From contig NZ_FNIR01000013.1 in assembly GCF_900103975.1 (NCBI RefSeq), positions 1-64,000 of the forward strand: a stretch of 64,000 nucleotides of DNA, in the 5' to 3' direction. Position 1 is the first letter of the stretch, and every line of letters begins with the position of its first letter. The notes below the pieces were generated by a model that worked only from the letters and a program-made list of their open reading frames with translations, was not told the origin of the DNA and made no database searches. Shown one piece after another: positions 28,899-59,120 of the stretch. The stretch comes from Klenkia soli (lineage in GTDB: Bacteria; Actinomycetota; Actinomycetes; Mycobacteriales; Geodermatophilaceae). The position numbers and the translations under genes were made by a program.

Positions 28899-28921
28899 CC
28901 GTCGGACCCGTCGGGTAGACC
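28899..28921 (+). promoter_or_regulatory. Damage-type promoter element of the AlkA-like gene
   Basis: ccgtcggac (28899-28907), 8 nt, then TAGACC (28916-28921), 7 nt, then GTG 28929. Same geometry as the recA and LysM promoters of this window. Confidence 0.55.
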
Positions 28922-28928
28922 TCCGGTC

Positions 28929-29819
28929 GTGCCGACCATCGCTCCCCGGGGCCCGTTCTCGCTCGCGGCCAGCAGCCGCTTCCTGGAGGGCTTCGCCCCG
29001 GCGGGGCGGGCCGCCGACGACGGCCCCCTCCGGCTGGTGTTCGCCCCCGACGGCCGTGGACCGGTGACCGGTGCCGCCGTCACCCAGTCCGCCGACGGCA
29101 CGGTCCGGGCCGACGTCGTGGGGAGCGAGCCCGCGGGGTTCGGCGACCACCTGGCCCGGATCCTGTCCCTGGACGTCGACGGCGCCGGCTTCCCCGCGAT
29201 CGCCGACCGGGACCCGGTCGTCGGGCGGCTGGCTGCGGCCTACCCCGGACTCCGGCCGGTCGGCTTCCACTTGCCGTACGAGGCGGCCTGCTGGGCCGTC
29301 GTCGGCCAGCGCCTGCGGATCACCCAGGCCGCCGGGGTGGTCGCCGGCATCCGCGCCCGGTGGGGGGAGACCGTGGAGGTCGCCGGCCGCCCGGTGGCGG
29401 CGTTCCCCGCGGCCCCGGTCCTGCTCGACGTGGCCGGGGAGCTGCCGCTGCCCGAGGTCAAGCAGGAACGGCTGCGCGGGCTCGCCGCGGCCGCGGTCGA
29501 CGGGCGGCTCGACGGCGCCCGGTTGCGCGACCTGTCGGCGGAGGAGGCGATCGCCGAGGTCAGCCGGCTGGCCGGGATCGGGCCCTTCTCGGCGGAGCTG
29601 GTCGTGGTGCGCGGGGCCGGTCACCCGGACCGGTTCCCGACCAGCGAGGGTCGGCTGCACGACTCGATGCGCCAGCTCTACGGACTGCCCGACGCAGGGG
29701 TGGCCGAGCTGACGACCGTGGCGGAGGCCTGGGCCCCCTACCGCACCTGGGTCTCGGTGCTGCTCCGCGTCGACCGGGAGGCCGCCACCGGCGAGATCGC
29801 CCGCGGGCGCCGCCGCTGA
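28929..29819 (+). CDS. AlkA-like HhH-GPD DNA-3-methyladenine glycosylase
   Basis: 296-aa alkylbase DNA glycosylase of the helix-hairpin-helix-GPD superfamily. The N-terminal half forms a TBP-like domain; HPYEAA-like LPYEAACWAVVGQRLRITQA (about 115-134) and the HhH LAGIGPFSAELVVVRGAG (214-231) are plain. The position of the catalytic Asp (six residues after Asp234 in DRFPTSE) holds Glu240. GTG 28929 is preceded by a promoter element with the -10 at 7 nt, so it is probably leaderless. The product is expected to excise alkylated purines. Confidence 0.85.
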   Translation: MPTIAPRGPFSLAASSRFLEGFAPAGRAADDGPLRLVFAPDGRGPVTGAAVTQSADGTVRADVVGSEPAGFGDHLARILSLDVDGAGFPAIADRDPVVGRLAAAYPGLRPVGFHLPYEAACWAVVGQRLRITQAAGVVAGIRARWGETVEVAGRPVAAFPAAPVLLDVAGELPLPEVKQERLRGLAAAAVDGRLDGARLRDLSAEEAIAEVSRLAGIGPFSAELVVVRGAGHPDRFPTSEGRLHDSMRQLYGLPDAGVAELTTVAEAWAPYRTWVSVLLRVDREAATGEIARGRRR

Positions 29820-29871: not shown

Positions 29872-32800
29872 TCAGCCGCGCAGCCGCAGTCCTCGCGGTG
29901 TGGCGCTGAACCCGGCGGCCTGCAGCGCCGCCGACAGCGGGGTGGCCTCGTGCACCGACGCGCCGTCGGCCTTCTGGACGACGATGCGGCCCAGCGCGCC
30001 GGCGGCCACCGCGTTCGACAACGCCGTCGCCGCCTCCTTCAGGGCGACCTCCTCCTCGGTCCAGGACAGCAGCGTCTTCCCCCCGCGCTCGACGTACAGC
30101 ACCAGCTCGCCGTCGACGAGCACGACCAGTGCACCGGCCTTGCGGCCGGCGCGGTGCCCGGTGCTGCCGCGCTTCTTCGCGACGCCCGGGGCGGTGCCCT
30201 CGCCGAGGTCGACCGCCTCGTCGGCCCCGTCACCGGTCGGCGCCTCACCCGGCGCGCCGATGGTCCGCTCGGGCCAGGGGAGAGCCGCGCCGTAGACGTT
30301 GGCCGGGTCGGTGGCGGCCAGCACGACCGCCGGGGTGGGGGTGCGGTCGGGGCTGGCGAAGCTGCGGAGCCGGTCGACCGAGCCCGGGGTGCCGAACTGG
30401 GCCGCGCCGAGGGTCTCCACGAAGTACCCGCGCCGGGCGCGGCCGTTCTCCTCGTAGGCCCGCAGGATCGGGTAGACGGCGGAGAACCCGCCGAGCACCT
30501 GCTCGGCCATGACGGCGCCGCGGGTCAGCACGCCGTGCCGCTCGAGCAGCGACTCGGTGCGGGCGTTGTTGCGCTTGGTCGCGTTGGTCTCGAGCTCGGG
30601 CAGCCGGGACCACCGGCCGGCGACCATCGGGGGGCCGGTGCGGCTGGGCATGGCCGGTCGGCCCACCCGGGTGCGGCCGTAGCGGGTGCGGTCGAGCCGG
30701 GCGCGGGGTGCCGCGGGGGCCTTCTTGTGCGCCCCGCCGCCGGCCAGCCGGGCCCGCAACGGGGCGAGGGTGTCGTTGGTGAGGGCTCCGGACCACACGA
30801 GGTCCCACACCACCTCGGCGAAGGCCTGGTCGTCGGTGGCCCCGACCCGGTCGGACAGCCCGCGGAAGAACAGCGCCTGCCCGCCGGACAGCTCCTCGAG
30901 CACCTGCCCGCCGACCCCGCCCTCGTCCTGGGCACCCAGCGGCGGTTCGGGCAGCAGCAGGGAGGCGAGGTCGGCCGGGACCAGGGTGATCCAGCCGTCG
31001 CCCCCGGACAACCCGCCGGCGCCGGCCCACAGCACCTCGCCGGCGCTGGTCAGCTCGTCGAGCATGCCGGGCTGGTAGCCCTGCACGCGCGAGGGCAGCA
31101 CCAGGGTCTCGAGGGCGGAGGCGGGCACGAGGGCCCCGGCCAGCTGCTCGACGACCGCGAGCACGCCGTCGACCCCGCGCATGCGGCTGCCGACGGACTG
31201 CCACGACGGCGTGTAGCGGGCCAGCGTGGTCGTCGGGACCGGCTCGACCTCCTGGCGCAGCTTGGCCAGGCTGCGCCGCCGGATGGAGCGCAGCACCTCG
31301 GCGTCGCACCACTCCTGGTCGACCCCGCCGGGCCGGAACTCGCCGGTGACGATGCGACCGGTGCCCACCAGCCGCTGGATGGTGGTGGTCACCACCGCGA
31401 CGCCCAGGCCGAGCCGGTCGGCCACCTCGCTCGGCACGAACGGGCCGTGCGTGCGGGCGTAGCGGCCGACGAGGTCGCCCAGCGGGTCGGCGACCGGCTC
31501 GGTGAACACCTCGGGCACGCCCACCGGGAGGGCGGTGCCCAGCGCGTCGCGGAACCGGCCGGCGTCCTCGATGGCGACGTACCGGTCCTGCCCCGCGATG
31601 CGCACCCGGAGCACCCGGCGACCGGCCACCAGCTCGTCCAGCCACTCCTGGGACACCCCCCGGGCGGCAGCCTCGGTGGCGCTGAGATCACCGACCACGC
31701 GCAGCAGGTCGGCGCCGGCGTCGACGTCCCGGGGGTGCCGGTCGGCCGGCTGCCGCTGCAGCTCGGCCTCGATCTCGGTGAGCGCGTCGCCGTCGAGCAG
31801 CTCGCGCAGCTCGGAGCGGCCCAGCAGCTCGGCCAGCAACCCGGTGTCCAGTGCCAGCGCCTGGGCGCGCCGCTCGGCCAGCGGGGCATCGCCCTCGTAG
31901 ATGAACTGGCCGACGTAGCCGAACAGCAACGACTGGGCGAAGGGGGAGGCGCTCTGGGTCTGCACGTCGGCCACCCGCACCCGCCGCGAGCGGATGTCGC
32001 TCATCAGCTCGACCAGGCCCGGCACGTCGTAGACGTCCTGCAGCACCTCCCGCACCGCCTCGAGGGTGATCGGGAAGCTGGAGAACTCGCTGGCCACGCT
32101 GAGCAGCTGCGCGGCGCGCTGCCGCTGCTGCCACAGCGGGGTGCGCCGGCGGGGATCGCGGCGGGGGAGCAGCAGGGCACGGGCGGCGCACTCGCGGAAC
32201 CGGCTGGCGAACAGCGCGGAGTTGCCGACCTCGGCGGTGACCTCCCGCTCGACGTCGTCGGGGTCGAGGATCGCGAGGTCGGCCTCGGGCGGCTCGCCGG
32301 TGGTGTCGGGCAACCGCAGCACGATGCCGTCGTCGGCGTGCATCGAGGCGACGTCCACCCCGTACCGCTCGCGCAGCCGGGCCGCGAGCACGAGCGCCCA
32401 GGGGGCGTTCACCTGCGCGCCGAACGGGGAGTGCACGACCAGCCGCCAGTCGCCGAGCTCGTCGCGGAAGCGCTCGACCAGCAGCGTGCGGTCGTCGGGC
32501 AGGTGCCCGGTCGCGGCCTTCTGCTCGACCAGGTAGGCCTGCAGGTTGGCCGCGCCCCACTCGTCGAGCCCGGCCGCCCGGGCCCGCTCGAGTCCGGCGG
32601 CCGGCGTGGCGCTCCCGACCTCGCGGAGGAAGGCGCCGAGCGCCCGGCCCAGCTCCAGCGGGCGGCCCAGGGTGTCGCCGTGCCAGAACGGCATCTTGCC
32701 GGGCTGCCCGGGTGCGGGGGTGACCAGCACGCGGTCGTGGGTGATCTCCTCGATCCGCCAGGAGGAGGAGCCGAGCAGGAAGACGTCGCCGACCCGCGAC

Positions 32801-34521
32801 TCGTAGACCATCTCCTCGTCGAGCTCACCGACCCGGCGGCCTCCGGTCTCGCCGCCGCCGGAGACGATGAAGACGCCGAAGAGGCCGCGGTCGGGGATCG
32901 TGCCGCCGCTGGTGACCGCCAGCCGCTGCGCGCCCTGGCGCGCGGTGAGGGTGTCGGTCACCCGGTCCCAGGTCAGCCGGGGCCGCAGCTCGGCGAAGGC
33001 GTCGGAGGGGTAGCGGCCGGCCAGCATGTCGAGCACCGCGTGCAGCGCGGAGTCCGGCAACGAGGCGAACGCCGCAGACCGGCGCAGCACCCCGGCCACC
33101 TCGTCGACGGTCTTGGGCTCCTCGGCGACGATCGCCACGATCTGCTGGGCCAGCACGTCCAGCGGGTTGCGCAGGTAGCGGATGGACTCGATCTGGCCGG
33201 CCTTCATCCGCTCGGCCACCACCGCGGACTGCACCAGGTCACCCCGGAACTTGGGGAACAGCACGCCGCGGCTGACCGCGCCGACCTGGTGCCCGGCCCG
33301 GCCGACCCGCTGCAGCCCGGCGGCCACGTTGGGCGGTGACTCGACCTGGATGACGAGGTCGACCGCACCCATGTCGATGCCCAGCTCCAGCGAGGAGGTG
33401 GCCACCACGGCGGGCAGCTGCCCGGACTTCAGCGCCTCCTCGACGACGGCCCGCTGCTCCCGGGAGACCGACCCGTGGTGGGCCGAGGCCACCGGCTTGG
33501 CGTCCGGCGGCAGGCCACCCCCGCCGCCGGCCTGGGCCATGAGCTGGGCCGCGTCGGCACCTGCCGGGACGGTCTCGCCGGTGGCCCGCTCGTAGGCGAG
33601 CTCGTTGAGCCGGCTGGTCAGCCGTTCGGCCAGCCGGCGGGAGTTGGCGAACACGATGGTGGAGCGGTGCGCCTCGATGAGGTCCAGCACCCGTTCCTCG
33701 ACCGCCGGCCAGATCGACGTCCTCGGCTGGGCGCCGGCCGCGGACCCCTCCATCTCCCCGGTGGGTTGGCCGAGCTGACTCATGTCCTCGACCGGCACGA
33801 CCACCGACAGGTCCCACTGCTTGGTCGACGGCGGCGCCACGATCTGCACCGGCCGCCCCCCGGCGAGGAAGGTGGCGACCTCCTCGATCGGCCGCACCGT
33901 GGCCGACAGCCCGATCCGCTGCGCCGGCTTCTCGAGCAGCATGTCCATCCGGTCCAGCGAGACCGCCAGGTGGGCGCCGCGCTTGCTGCCGCAGACCGCG
34001 TGCACCTCGTCGAGGATCACCGTCTCGACCCCGCGCAGCGCCTCCCGCGCCTGGCTGGTGAGCAGCAGGAACAGCGACTCGGGGGTGGTGATGAGGATGT
34101 CGGTGGGCCGCCGGGCGAACGCCCGCCGCTCGTCGGCGGGGGTGTCACCGGACCGGATGCCCACACTGATCTCGGGGCGGGGGAGACCGAGCCGGGCAGC
34201 GGCCTGGCCGATGCCGGTCAGCGGCGCCCGCAGGTTGCGCTCGACGTCGACGGCCAGCGCCTTCAGCGGGGACACGTAGAGCACCCGGCAGCGGGCCTTC
34301 TCCTCCTCCGGCAGCGGGGTGGCGGCCAGCCGGTCGAGCGACCAGAGGAAGGCCGCCAGCGTCTTGCCCGAGCCGGTGGGGGCGACGACCAGGGCGTGCT
34401 CACCGCTGCTGATCGCCGTCCAGGCGCCCTCCTGGGCCGCCGTGGGCGCGTCGAAGGCGCCGGTGAACCACGCCTTGGTGGGCGCGGAGAACCGGTCGAT
34501 CGCGGACGGGGCGGGAGGCAC
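29872..34521 (-). CDS. lhr: Lhr-family ATP-dependent DNA helicase
   Basis: 1549-aa large helicase-related protein, a single-stranded-DNA-dependent 3'-5' translocase linked to DNA damage repair in mycobacteria. The superfamily-2 core has Walker A APTGSGKT (47-54), DEVH in VILDEVHAVCGS (about 168), LSATVRP, and QRVGRAGHQ as motif VI. The Lhr-core winged-helix and beta-barrel domains follow, then a long C-terminal domain (about 900-1549). The length equals full-length bacterial Lhr. GTG 34521 follows a damage-type promoter with the -10 six nt upstream. It is divergent from an acyl-CoA dehydrogenase. Confidence 0.95.
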   Translation of the reverse strand: MPPAPSAIDRFSAPTKAWFTGAFDAPTAAQEGAWTAISSGEHALVVAPTGSGKTLAAFLWSLDRLAATPLPEEEKARCRVLYVSPLKALAVDVERNLRAPLTGIGQAAARLGLPRPEISVGIRSGDTPADERRAFARRPTDILITTPESLFLLLTSQAREALRGVETVILDEVHAVCGSKRGAHLAVSLDRMDMLLEKPAQRIGLSATVRPIEEVATFLAGGRPVQIVAPPSTKQWDLSVVVPVEDMSQLGQPTGEMEGSAAGAQPRTSIWPAVEERVLDLIEAHRSTIVFANSRRLAERLTSRLNELAYERATGETVPAGADAAQLMAQAGGGGGLPPDAKPVASAHHGSVSREQRAVVEEALKSGQLPAVVATSSLELGIDMGAVDLVIQVESPPNVAAGLQRVGRAGHQVGAVSRGVLFPKFRGDLVQSAVVAERMKAGQIESIRYLRNPLDVLAQQIVAIVAEEPKTVDEVAGVLRRSAAFASLPDSALHAVLDMLAGRYPSDAFAELRPRLTWDRVTDTLTARQGAQRLAVTSGGTIPDRGLFGVFIVSGGGETGGRRVGELDEEMVYESRVGDVFLLGSSSWRIEEITHDRVLVTPAPGQPGKMPFWHGDTLGRPLELGRALGAFLREVGSATPAAGLERARAAGLDEWGAANLQAYLVEQKAATGHLPDDRTLLVERFRDELGDWRLVVHSPFGAQVNAPWALVLAARLRERYGVDVASMHADDGIVLRLPDTTGEPPEADLAILDPDDVEREVTAEVGNSALFASRFRECAARALLLPRRDPRRRTPLWQQRQRAAQLLSVASEFSSFPITLEAVREVLQDVYDVPGLVELMSDIRSRRVRVADVQTQSASPFAQSLLFGYVGQFIYEGDAPLAERRAQALALDTGLLAELLGRSELRELLDGDALTEIEAELQRQPADRHPRDVDAGADLLRVVGDLSATEAAARGVSQEWLDELVAGRRVLRVRIAGQDRYVAIEDAGRFRDALGTALPVGVPEVFTEPVADPLGDLVGRYARTHGPFVPSEVADRLGLGVAVVTTTIQRLVGTGRIVTGEFRPGGVDQEWCDAEVLRSIRRRSLAKLRQEVEPVPTTTLARYTPSWQSVGSRMRGVDGVLAVVEQLAGALVPASALETLVLPSRVQGYQPGMLDELTSAGEVLWAGAGGLSGGDGWITLVPADLASLLLPEPPLGAQDEGGVGGQVLEELSGGQALFFRGLSDRVGATDDQAFAEVVWDLVWSGALTNDTLAPLRARLAGGGAHKKAPAAPRARLDRTRYGRTRVGRPAMPSRTGPPMVAGRWSRLPELETNATKRNNARTESLLERHGVLTRGAVMAEQVLGGFSAVYPILRAYEENGRARRGYFVETLGAAQFGTPGSVDRLRSFASPDRTPTPAVVLAATDPANVYGAALPWPERTIGAPGEAPTGDGADEAVDLGEGTAPGVAKKRGSTGHRAGRKAGALVVLVDGELVLYVERGGKTLLSWTEEEVALKEAATALSNAVAAGALGRIVVQKADGASVHEATPLSAALQAAGFSATPRGLRLRG

Positions 34522-34527
34522 CCCACC

Positions 34528-34550
34528 AGTGTCCCCAGCGGGTACGACAA
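34528..34550 (-). promoter_or_regulatory. Damage-type promoter element of lhr
   Basis: On the minus strand ttgtcgtac (34550-34542), 8 nt, gacact (34533-34528), 6 nt, then GTG 34521. The 9-mer differs from those of recA and the LysM gene at one base. Confidence 0.55.
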
Positions 34551-38180: not shown

Positions 38181-38194
38181 CGAACACGTGTTCG
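38181..38194. promoter_or_regulatory. SOS box (LexA site) upstream of recA
   Basis: cgaacacgtgttcg, a perfect 14-bp palindrome of the actinobacterial CGAAC-N4-GTTCG consensus, about 136 bp before the recA ATG. It is expected to bind the LexA encoded at 57411. Confidence 0.88.
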
Positions 38195-38254: not shown

Positions 38255-38277
38255 TTGTCGGACCCCCGCCCTACCGT
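38255..38277 (+). promoter_or_regulatory. RecA-NDp-like promoter of recA
   Basis: TTGTCGGAC (38255-38263), 8 nt, then TACCGT (38272-38277). This is the clearest copy of the damage-type element in the window and matches the mycobacterial TTGTCRGTG-N8-TAnnnT layout except at two bases of the 9-mer. Predicted start of transcription is near 38284, giving a leader of about 46 nt. Confidence 0.62.
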
Positions 38278-38329: not shown

Positions 38330-39364
38330 ATGGCAACCCTGGACCGCGACAAGGCCCTCGACATGGCCCTGGCCCAGATCGACAAGCAGTTCGGCAAGGG
38401 CTCGGTCATGCGGCTGGGCGACTCGCCCGAGGTGGCCATGAAGGTCATCCCGACCGGCTCGATCGCCCTCGACATCGCCCTGGGCGTCGGTGGCCTGCCC
38501 CGCGGCCGGGTCGTCGAGGTCTACGGCCCCGAGGCCTCGGGCAAGACGACGGTCGCCCTGCACGCGGTGGCCAACGCCCAGGCCGCCGGCGGCATCGTGG
38601 CCTTCGTCGACGCCGAGCACGCGCTGGACCCCGACTACGCCCGCGCCATCGGCGTCGACACCGACGCCCTGCTGATCAGCCAGCCCGACACCGGCGAGCA
38701 GGCGCTGGAGATCGCGGACATGCTGATCCGCTCCGGTGCGCTGGACCTCATCGTCATCGACTCGGTGGCCGCCCTGGTGCCCCGCGCCGAGATCGAGGGC
38801 GAGATGGGCGACAGCCACGTCGGTCTGCAGGCCCGCCTCATGAGCCAGGCCCTCCGCAAGATCACCGGTGCGCTCAGCAACTCCGGCACGACCTGCATCT
38901 TCATCAACCAGCTGCGCGAGAAGGTCGGCGTGGTCTACGGCTCGCCCGAGGTCACCACCGGTGGTCGCGCGCTGAAGTTCTACTCGTCCGTGCGGCTCGA
39001 CGTCCGCCGCATCGAGACCCTGAAGACCGGCACCGACGCCGTCGGCAGCCGCGTGCGGATCAAGGTCGTCAAGAACAAGGTCGCCGCTCCGTTCAAGCAG
39101 GCCGAGCTCGACCTCATCTGGGGCACCGGGTTCAGCCGTGAGGGTGGCCTGATCGACATCGGCGTGGAGCAGGGCTTCGTCCGCAAGTCCGGTGCTTGGT
39201 ACACCTACGAGGGCGACCAGCTGGGGCAGGGCAAGGAGAACGCCCGCGGCTTCCTGCGCGACAACCCCGACCTGGCCGACGAGATCGAGAAGAAGATCAA
39301 GGAGAAGCTCGGCATCGGGCCGCGGCTGGACGCCCCGGTCGACGCCGTGCCCGCCGACTTCTGA
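38330..39364 (+). CDS. recA: Recombinase RecA
   Basis: 344-aa strand-exchange recombinase and LexA coprotease. Walker A is GPEASGKT (66-73), the [20 protein letters not shown] block (Walker B and L1) and the [24 protein letters not shown] stretch (L2) follow; the C-terminus is acidic. There is no intein, unlike some mycobacterial RecA. ATG 38330 follows gtggacacc with a weak ribosome site. It has an SOS box at 38181 and a RecA-NDp-like promoter at 38255, so it should respond to damage by two routes. recX follows 33 bp downstream. Confidence 0.98.
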
Positions 39365-57410: not shown

Positions 57411-58223
57411 TCAGACCCGGCGCAGGACCGTGACCACGCGGCCCAGGACGGTGGCGTCGTCACCGGGGATGGGCTCGAAGGCCGGGTTGTGCGGCAGCAG
57501 CCACACGTGGCCGTCCCGGCGCTTGTAGGTCTTGACCGTGGCTTCGCCGTCGATCATCGCCGCCACGATCTCGCCGTTCTCGGCGGTGGCCTGCTGACGG
57601 ACGACCACCCAGTCGCCGTCGCAGATCGCGGCGTCGATCATCGACTCGCCGGTCACCTTCAGCATGAACAGCGTGCCCTCGCCGACCAGTTCGCGGGGCA
57701 GCGGGAACACCTCCTCGACGGCCTGCTCGGCCAGCACCGGACCACCGGCGGCGATGCGCCCGACCAACGGCACGTAGGTCGGGGTGGGGACGCGGGGGTC
57801 GTCGACCCCGCTGCCGGCACCGGCCGCGGCCAACCCGGCGGCGGACGGGTCGGCGTCGGGGTGGTCGCCGGGCAGCCGCACGTCGAGGGCGCGCGGGCGG
57901 TTCGGGTCGCGCCGCAGCCAGCCCTTCTTCTGCAGCGTCGACAGCTGGTGGGCCACCGAGGAAGCCGAGGACAGCCCGACGGCCTCGCCGATCTCGCGGA
58001 CGCTCGGCGGGTAGCCGCGACGCTCGACGGAGTCGCGGATGACCTCCAGGACCCGGCGCTGGCGCTGGGTCAGGCCGTCGCCGGCCTCACCGCGCTCGGG
58101 GAACTCGCGCACCGACGCACCGCGACCGCCGGACGCCGGCTCGGCGGAGCTGCTCGCCCTCGGCCGGCGAGGTCGCTTGCCGGTGCCGTCGGTCCCGCCG
58201 GGGGTGTCTCCCGCGCTCGCCAC
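57411..58223 (-). CDS. lexA: SOS-response transcriptional repressor LexA
   Basis: 270-aa LexA. The N-terminal winged HTH ([20 protein letters not shown] at 51-70; [20 protein letters not shown] at 75-94) follows 50 extra residues; the S24 self-cleavage domain has the Ala159-Gly160 cleavage bond, Ser194 and Lys231. The extension and a long linker make it longer than the 200-230-aa norm. GTG 58223 start. It is divergent from the LysM gene, with SOS boxes in between, and should also bind the recA box. Confidence 0.95.
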
Positions 58224-58344: not shown

Positions 58345-58358
58345 CAAACACGTGTTCG
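58345..58358. promoter_or_regulatory. SOS box of lexA
   Basis: caaacacgtgttcg, one mismatch from CGAAC-N4-GTTCG, 122 bp before lexA on the minus strand. It supports autoregulation of lexA. Confidence 0.75.
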
Positions 58359-58383: not shown

Positions 58384-58406
58384 TTGTCGGACCCGTGCGG
58401 TAGACA
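58384..58406 (+). promoter_or_regulatory. RecA-NDp-like promoter of the LysM gene
   Basis: TTGTCGGAC (58384-58392), 8 nt, then TAGACA (58401-58406). The 9-mer is identical to the recA copy. It leaves a leader of about 75 nt that holds the second SOS box. Confidence 0.58.
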
Positions 58407-58424: not shown

Positions 58425-58438
58425 CGAACAGCCGTTCG
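58425..58438. promoter_or_regulatory. SOS box of the LysM gene
   Basis: cgaac-agcc-gttcg matches CGAAC-N4-GTTCG exactly. It lies 50 bp before the ATG, between predicted transcription start and gene, where LexA would block elongation. Confidence 0.85.
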
Positions 58439-58487: not shown

Positions 58488-59120
58488 ATGGCCAGCACCG
58501 CGAGCCCCCTCCGCACCGTCCCGCGCAGCGCCGCACCCGGCGCCGCGATGCCGACCGCCCTCCCGGCGCCGGTCGTCCGTGCCCAGGCGGGGCGTGGCGA
58601 CCTCCGGCGGGGCAACCACCCGGCCGGTCGGGCGCTGTCCCGCTCGGCGGTCGCCACCCCGGGTGGGTCGATCGCCCCGGTGTTGCCCCTGCGTCCCGCC
58701 GGCGCGGTCGTGGTCCCGCTGCGTCCCGGCGCGCCGCGAGCCGTCCCCGCCCCTGCCGTCTCCGTTCCCGCCGTGCCCGCCGTCCCCGTCGCCCCCGCTG
58801 CTGCGGCGGACCCGGCTCCCGTCGGTCCGGCCCGGCTGCGGCTGACCCGCCGCGGTCGGGTGGTGCTGAGCGGGTTGGGTGTGGTGGCCGCGCTCGGGGT
58901 GGCGGCCGTCGTCGGCCCGGCGCTGGGTGGTGCAGGTGACCCCGCGCTCGAGCTGGCGGGGCGGTCCAGCGTGGTGGTGCACAGCGGCGACACCCTGTGG
59001 TCGATCGCCGAGTCGGTCGCCCCCGACGTCGATCCGCGAGGCGTGGTCGACGCCCTGCGCGAGGCGAACGGCCTCGAGGACACCCGCCTGGTGCCCGGTC
59101 AGGTCCTCGTCCTGCCCTGA
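58488..59120 (+). CDS. LysM membrane protein, likely SOS cell-division suppressor
   Basis: 210 aa. Residues 1-115 are cytosolic, Pro/Ala/Val-rich. A membrane helix spans 125-147, and an extracytoplasmic LysM domain (SSVVVHSGDTLWSIAESVAP and EANGLEDTRLVPGQVLVLP) occupies 161-209. A single-pass LysM protein divergent from lexA and upstream of nrdR is the hallmark of corynebacterial DivS and mycobacterial Rv2719c/ChiZ, and of Bacillus YneA, which halt division during damage. AGGAG lies 9 nt before ATG 58488. Confidence 0.86.
   Translation: MASTASPLRTVPRSAAPGAAMPTALPAPVVRAQAGRGDLRRGNHPAGRALSRSAVATPGGSIAPVLPLRPAGAVVVPLRPGAPRAVPAPAVSVPAVPAVPVAPAAAADPAPVGPARLRLTRRGRVVLSGLGVVAALGVAAVVGPALGGAGDPALELAGRSSVVVHSGDTLWSIAESVAPDVDPRGVVDALREANGLEDTRLVPGQVLVLP

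Follow-up and report, generated by a model that had tools for sequence, protein, structure and literature searches.

The RecA-NDp (P1) promoters of mycobacteria are regulated by PafBC and follow the pattern tTGTCRgtg-8 nt-TannnT, the weaker positions being in lower case (PMC5656591). In M. tuberculosis the core is TGTCGG-N10-TANNNT, with free positions after TGTCGG (PMC8151990). The trigger is single-stranded DNA; PafB recognizes the -26 element, and PafC makes contact with SigA (PMC11804915). LexA boxes are also present at M. tuberculosis recA and at the rv2719c operon, and in the latter, which is divergent from lexA, the arrangement of PafBC plus SOS control is already found (PMC8151990). 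A single WYL activator of M. smegmatis, SiwR, is likewise linked to DNA damage and acts at -26 (PMC10693628). RecA-NDp has been reported for S. coelicolor (PMC5087735), and the PafBC motif was remarked to be "not conserved" in S. venezuelae (PMC9380542).

We analysed a stretch of 64,000 nt from the Klenkia soli genome (hereafter the window), in which a first-pass annotation had placed a shared promoter element of RecA-NDp/PafBC layout before five damage genes. These sites resemble Mycobacterium RecA-NDp in their position and fixed spacing, in the core GTC(G/A)G of all but lhr and alkZ, in the repair regulon that they precede, in the presence of pafBC beside pafA, and in the predicted joint control of recA and a LysM gene together with SOS boxes. 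They differ in that the Geodermatophilaceae element often reads GTCGGAC or GTCGTAC, the latter often with a CA or GA -10 and absent from the RecA-NDp/PafBC descriptions consulted (PMC5656591, PMC8151990), and in that most regulon transcripts of the present genome look leaderless.

The element at the five window sites

The five 9-mers, each with its 8-nt gap and -10-like hexamer, were all found in place, and so were the damage genes behind them (5/5 for both). The recA and LysM sites, which carry LexA boxes in addition, comprise the following features.

38181–38194: perfect LexA (SOS) box CGAACACGTGTTCG upstream of recA
38255–38263, + strand: recA -26 element TTGTCGGAC, then N8-TACCGT
38272–38277, + strand: recA promoter -10 TACCGT, from the sequence pattern
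38330–39364, + strand: recA, with leader, starting at ATG 38330 (Pfam PF00154, E 1e-136)
57411–58223, - strand: lexA (Pfam LexA_DNA_bind, E 1e-27; Peptidase_S24, E 4e-33)
58345–58358: degenerate LexA box CAAACACGTGTTCG, with one mismatch
58384–58392, + strand: -26 element TTGTCGGAC of the LysM (rv2719c-like) gene, then N8-TAGACA
58401–58406, + strand: -10-like TAGACA of the LysM gene, from the sequence pattern
58425–58438: LexA box CGAACAGCCGTTCG of the LysM gene
58488–59120, + strand: LysM-type division-suppressor-like gene, from the LysM signature VHSGDTLWSIA in the translation and its rv2719c placement

The LysM gene is divergent from lexA, whose true start may lie further downstream, and it has a leader; its N-terminal part, the part that was searched, matched no Pfam model. 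The features of the remaining three sites are as follows.

1396–1404, + strand: -26 element ATGTCGTAC of the YcaQ/AlkZ gene, then N8-CAGGAT
1413–1418, + strand: alkZ -10-like CAGGAT, 7 nt before GTG 1426
1426–2640, + strand: AlkZ-like (YcaQ) glycosylase, proposed leaderless GTG start (Pfam PF06224, E 3e-75)
28899–28907, + strand: -26 element CCGTCGGAC of the AlkA-like gene, then N8-TAGACC
28916–28921, + strand: -10-like TAGACC of the AlkA-like gene, 7 nt before GTG 28929
28929–29819, + strand: AlkA-like DNA-3-methyladenine glycosylase, leaderless GTG (phmmer to solved structures)
29872–34521, - strand: lhr helicase, leaderless GTG (Pfam DEAD_assoc, WH_Lhr)
34528–34533, - strand: lhr -10-like GACACT, 6 nt before GTG 34521
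34542–34550, - strand: lhr -26 element TTGTCGTAC, then N8-GACACT

In all three cases the GTG lies exactly 27 or 28 nt past the G of GTCG and the -10 ends 6–7 nt before it, so the transcripts should be leaderless. The lhr promoter, of the GTCGTACC form, is conserved in eight other Geodermatophilaceae genomes, and the alkZ element is conserved before the orthologue in nine. The alkZ orthologues of the family start at a GTG in the matching place, and GTG 1426 rather than ATG 1396 is probably the alkZ start. The AlkA-like protein is divergent, as no Pfam model reports a match to it; phmmer relates it to the DNA-3-methyladenine glycosylase II chains 1diz (E 1e-8) and 2yg8 (E 2e-9), and the catalytic-aspartate region of AlkA seems to read GHPDRFPTSEGRL. 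The SOS (LexA) regulon shares with this group the LexA boxes at recA and the LysM gene, but no LexA box, palindromic or of relaxed consensus, was found in the vicinity of lhr, alkZ or the AlkA-like gene. The term LexA-independent, previously given to the whole group, thus does not hold for recA (box at 38181) and the LysM gene (boxes at 58345 and 58425).

Among the five sites only recA has a strict TAnnnT -10, and only recA has the strict core TGTCGG-N10-TANNNT. The core TGTC(G/A)G is present at recA and the LysM gene, and the CGTCGG of the AlkA-like gene is one mismatch away from it. The core of lhr and alkZ, TGTCGT, falls outside TGTC(G/A)G, and their -10 has no T at the first position. After the core, all five sites have AC instead of TG. 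This final AC, pointed out in the first-pass annotation, does not by itself break with the mycobacterial motif, since AC falls in the free part of TGTCGG-N10-TANNNT (PMC8151990); the real departure from the published motif is GTCGT combined with a non-TA -10. What ties lhr and alkZ to the PafBC class is solely that the forms exchange slots at other genes.

The pattern GTCGKAC-N8-BANNNH has 10 matches in the window, against 3.0 expected from shuffled sequence (sd 1.9, maximum 8), and four of them are not closely followed by the start codon of a long ORF. Those that precede genes are five distinct elements, all five with damage genes behind them, plus a sixth match at 38276 that overlaps the recA site. 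This second GTCGGAC, which lies over the recA -10 and whose own -10 would be CAGACA, was taken as a chance match. We agree with the earlier caution that the heptamer alone is common by chance; it is by the -10 and the start position that real sites can be told from such matches.

Genome-wide distribution and the genes behind the element

Throughout the 4.76 Mb genome, patterns were counted against their reversed forms as controls. GTCGKAC-N8-BANNNH, with 335 matches versus 120 reversed, was discarded as too loose to define a regulon. GTCGGAC-N8-TASNNT gives 21 versus 0, and 13 of these 21 have an ORF start at +27 or +28, although the start position was outside the search pattern and an RTG at either place has a chance probability of about 0.05. 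The canonical form GTCRGTG-N8-TANNNT occurs in the same genome 18 times versus 0, TGTCNG-N10-TASNNT-N5..8-RTG 33 times versus 3, and leaderless GTCGTAC sites 14 times versus 1. When the two central positions are left free, leaderless GTC-NN-ACC sites number 38 versus 8 reversed, NN being GG in 16 and GT in 13. Positions 6–7 of the element behave genome-wide as a two-state character, AC or TG, with rare mixtures. The first base of the -10 is other than T at 11/13 GTCGTACC sites versus 4/16 GTCGGACC sites (p 0.0025). Across Geodermatophilaceae many GTCGTACC sites have TA, so that the weak -10 is not a family-wide trait; leaderless GTCGTACC sites themselves are present in all 60 of 60 genomes of the family, with 0–1 reversed matches in each.

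An excess of repair genes, for which a genome-wide scan had been suggested, is clearly seen. Among annotated leaderless genes, repair or replication functions account for 15/35 with the element and 1/37 without it (Fisher p 3e-5), the first count being strict, with operon partners left out, and the 37 comparison genes having been read by eye. The comparison set was drawn from the window and 20 evenly chosen stretches of the genome, 464 kb in all, where none of the 37 leaderless TA[CG]NNT genes has GTCGKAC or GTCRGTG at the slot.

The genes behind GTCGTAC are holA, era (followed by recO), a PolA-like exonuclease/polymerase gene, radA, a UvrD/PcrA-like helicase gene, polA, rmuC, alkZ, lhr and a DUF222 gene. 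GTCGGAC precedes recA, genes for two RecB-like PD-(D/E)XK nucleases, a RecQ-like helicase and a DEDD exonuclease, ybaB-recR, tmk-holB, mshC and several unrelated genes, and GTCGGTG precedes dnaX, nth, ligA, DAK2-recG and an RNase J gene. Related forms are found before an SbcD-like gene and rarA. The operons ybaB-recR, tmk-holB, era-recO and DAK2-recG were read directly, and the gene identities at truncated loci rest on the N-terminal parts. For some of the genes behind the element, such as those for an amidase, an EamA transporter and ABC transporters, no connection with damage is apparent. A phage-family search with three target genes that lack an assigned role found nothing.

Two individual loci may be mentioned. 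At L381:1578-2345 (G000:C17:178577), a leaderless orphan gene of 247 aa has the promoter GTCGGACCC...TAGCGT and adjoins a phage tail tape-measure gene and a WhiB-like gene; it apparently belongs to a prophage remnant or island and uses the damage promoter of the host. The other, L100:3244-4185 (G000:C8:240673), is a gene for a RecB-like nuclease that also has the element; it is situated on the margin of the pup-proteasome locus, about 9 kb before pafA-pafB-pafC.

Exchange of spellings within promoter slots

The element is kept in the same place upstream of recA in 63/70 genomes of the class, most of which also have the LexA box. These 63 genomes spell the variable dinucleotide TG in 38 cases, AC in 16, AG in four and otherwise in five, with no TC; the corresponding two-state p-value of 6e-11 ignores kinship and is not to be taken literally. 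Seven families have the AC form and thirteen the TG form, family f30 having both, a scatter that implies that the spelling has switched repeatedly. At radA the element stands at a fixed distance in 29/30 genomes, in spellings that include GTCRGTG, GTCGGAC, GTCGGAG, GTCCGAC and GTCACAC, and as GTCGTAC in the present genome. The ligA slot has GTCGGTG here and GTCGTAC in other Geodermatophilaceae, the ybaB-recR slot has GTCGGAC here and GTCGTAC in another genome of the family, and forms are also exchanged at the RecB-like and DEDD exonuclease genes. A genome from another family of the order has GTCGTACC before alkZ, rmuC and a RecB-like gene, and, as read by eye, a DinB-like gene.

Some further promoters are of interest in their own right. 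In another family of the order (L393, G095), a GTCGTACC promoter precedes the gene of an HTH regulator, WYL-type in look. DUF222-type genes of other Geodermatophilaceae (L255, L262, L264 and L267) have a GTCGTACC promoter with a LexA-box-like palindrome, CGAACGTATGTTCG or near variants, over the -10; activator element and repressor box would be merged within about 30 bp. In genus g23 of family f20 (genomes of 7–10 Mb), which we presume is perhaps Streptomyces, GTCRGTG-N8-TANNNT occurs about 30–70 times versus 0–9 and is present at recA and radA. This enrichment is at odds with the remark on S. venezuelae (PMC9380542). The small-genome families f6, f27 and f36 show no enrichment of the pattern.

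The probable regulator, rival explanations and meaning

The search for pafBC, also proposed beforehand, was successful, as pafB and pafC come after pafA in the pup-proteasome locus. The closest PafB, from Klenkia terrae, is 93% identical. Compared with PafB of M. smegmatis (7p5x), the protein matches at E 2e-74, and the helix DEAFxRMFERDK is conserved. A change of PafB specificity behind the AC spelling was considered and set aside as unneeded, the recognition helix being that of M. smegmatis. If transcription begins at the initiator codon, the element lies at about -28 to -22, in agreement with the -26 motif of PafBC (PMC11804915). Since position, composition and gene set all agree with the PafBC mechanism, the sites are very probably promoters of the actinobacterial RecA-NDp/PafBC type, for which we infer binding, damage induction and the start sites. 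GTCRGTG, GTCGGAC and GTCGTAC are most readily understood as variants of the known -26 element and not as a new type of regulon.

By this mechanism, SigA-RNA polymerase would recognize the -10, and the -26 element (GTCGGAC, GTCGTAC or GTCRGTG), whose first G lies 15 nt before the -10, would replace the -35. The winged helix of PafB would bind the -26 element and PafC would bridge to sigma domain 4 (sigma adaptation). PafBC would be activated by the single-stranded DNA that forms at damage and would then increase transcription of all five window genes (recA, lhr, alkZ and the AlkA-like and LysM genes) and of some tens of further repair and replication genes. At recA and the LysM gene the LexA boxes would add a second control, and most other transcripts of the regulon would be leaderless, beginning at the initiator ATG or GTG.

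In a different view, PafBC would read only GTCRGTG, and GTCGGAC and GTCGTAC would be recognized by a second activator of the WYL type, either SiwR-like or another single WYL protein of this genome, giving two parallel damage regulons. The two-state behaviour of positions 6–7 speaks for it, as in the recA slot with its 16 AC, 38 TG, four AG and no TC, and so do the four further WYL matches of the genome; SiwR acts at -26 with a conserved GGA there (PMC10693628), and GTCGGAC has the dyad symmetry (GTC-N-GAC) that a homodimer site might show. GTCGTAC, however, is neither symmetric nor endowed with GGA, and SiwR is a homodimer that requires a 19-bp imperfect palindrome, described at one operon, whereas the present element is short and precedes tens of genes. 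The forms interchange in the orthologous recA, radA, ligA and ybaB-recR promoters, which makes a second activator improbable.

Two other readings are less probable still. Many matches are leaderless and some of the genes are not repair genes, as would be expected if leaderless or housekeeping promoters of this GC-rich genome had the element in general and its link to repair were incidental. This reading was rejected on the complete absence of the element from the 37 leaderless TA[CG]NNT genes of the 464 kb, among which, moreover, a single repair gene was found, against 15 of the 35 genes with the element. It is about equally far-fetched that a dedicated ECF-type sigma factor recognizes GTCGKACC in the role of a -35, along with the -10-like hexamer: the frequent lack of the first T at GTCGTAC sites (11/13, compared with 4/16 at GTCGGAC sites) would suit such a factor, but the 8 nt from the 9-mer to the -10 leave too little room for an ordinary -35/-10 pair, the -10 retains the A and the last T that mark the housekeeping type, and the slot is common to the PafBC element across the class. 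We regard as doubtful, though more plausible than any of these rivals, the idea that the AC form, the TG form and GTCGTAC with a weak -10 are functionally distinct promoter classes encoding a graded damage response in the -26 element, based for example on differing damage thresholds, on basal activity or on a second WYL activator.

Geodermatophilaceae are noted for life on sun-exposed, dry surfaces. The PafBC-type damage regulon would be extended to this family, with some 20–30 candidate targets, and the -26 element has interchangeable forms that the mycobacterial consensus misses. These forms may account for the remarks on a "not conserved" motif in other actinobacteria (PMC9380542, S. venezuelae), and they make the way in which PafB reads DNA directly testable through swaps of two or three bases.
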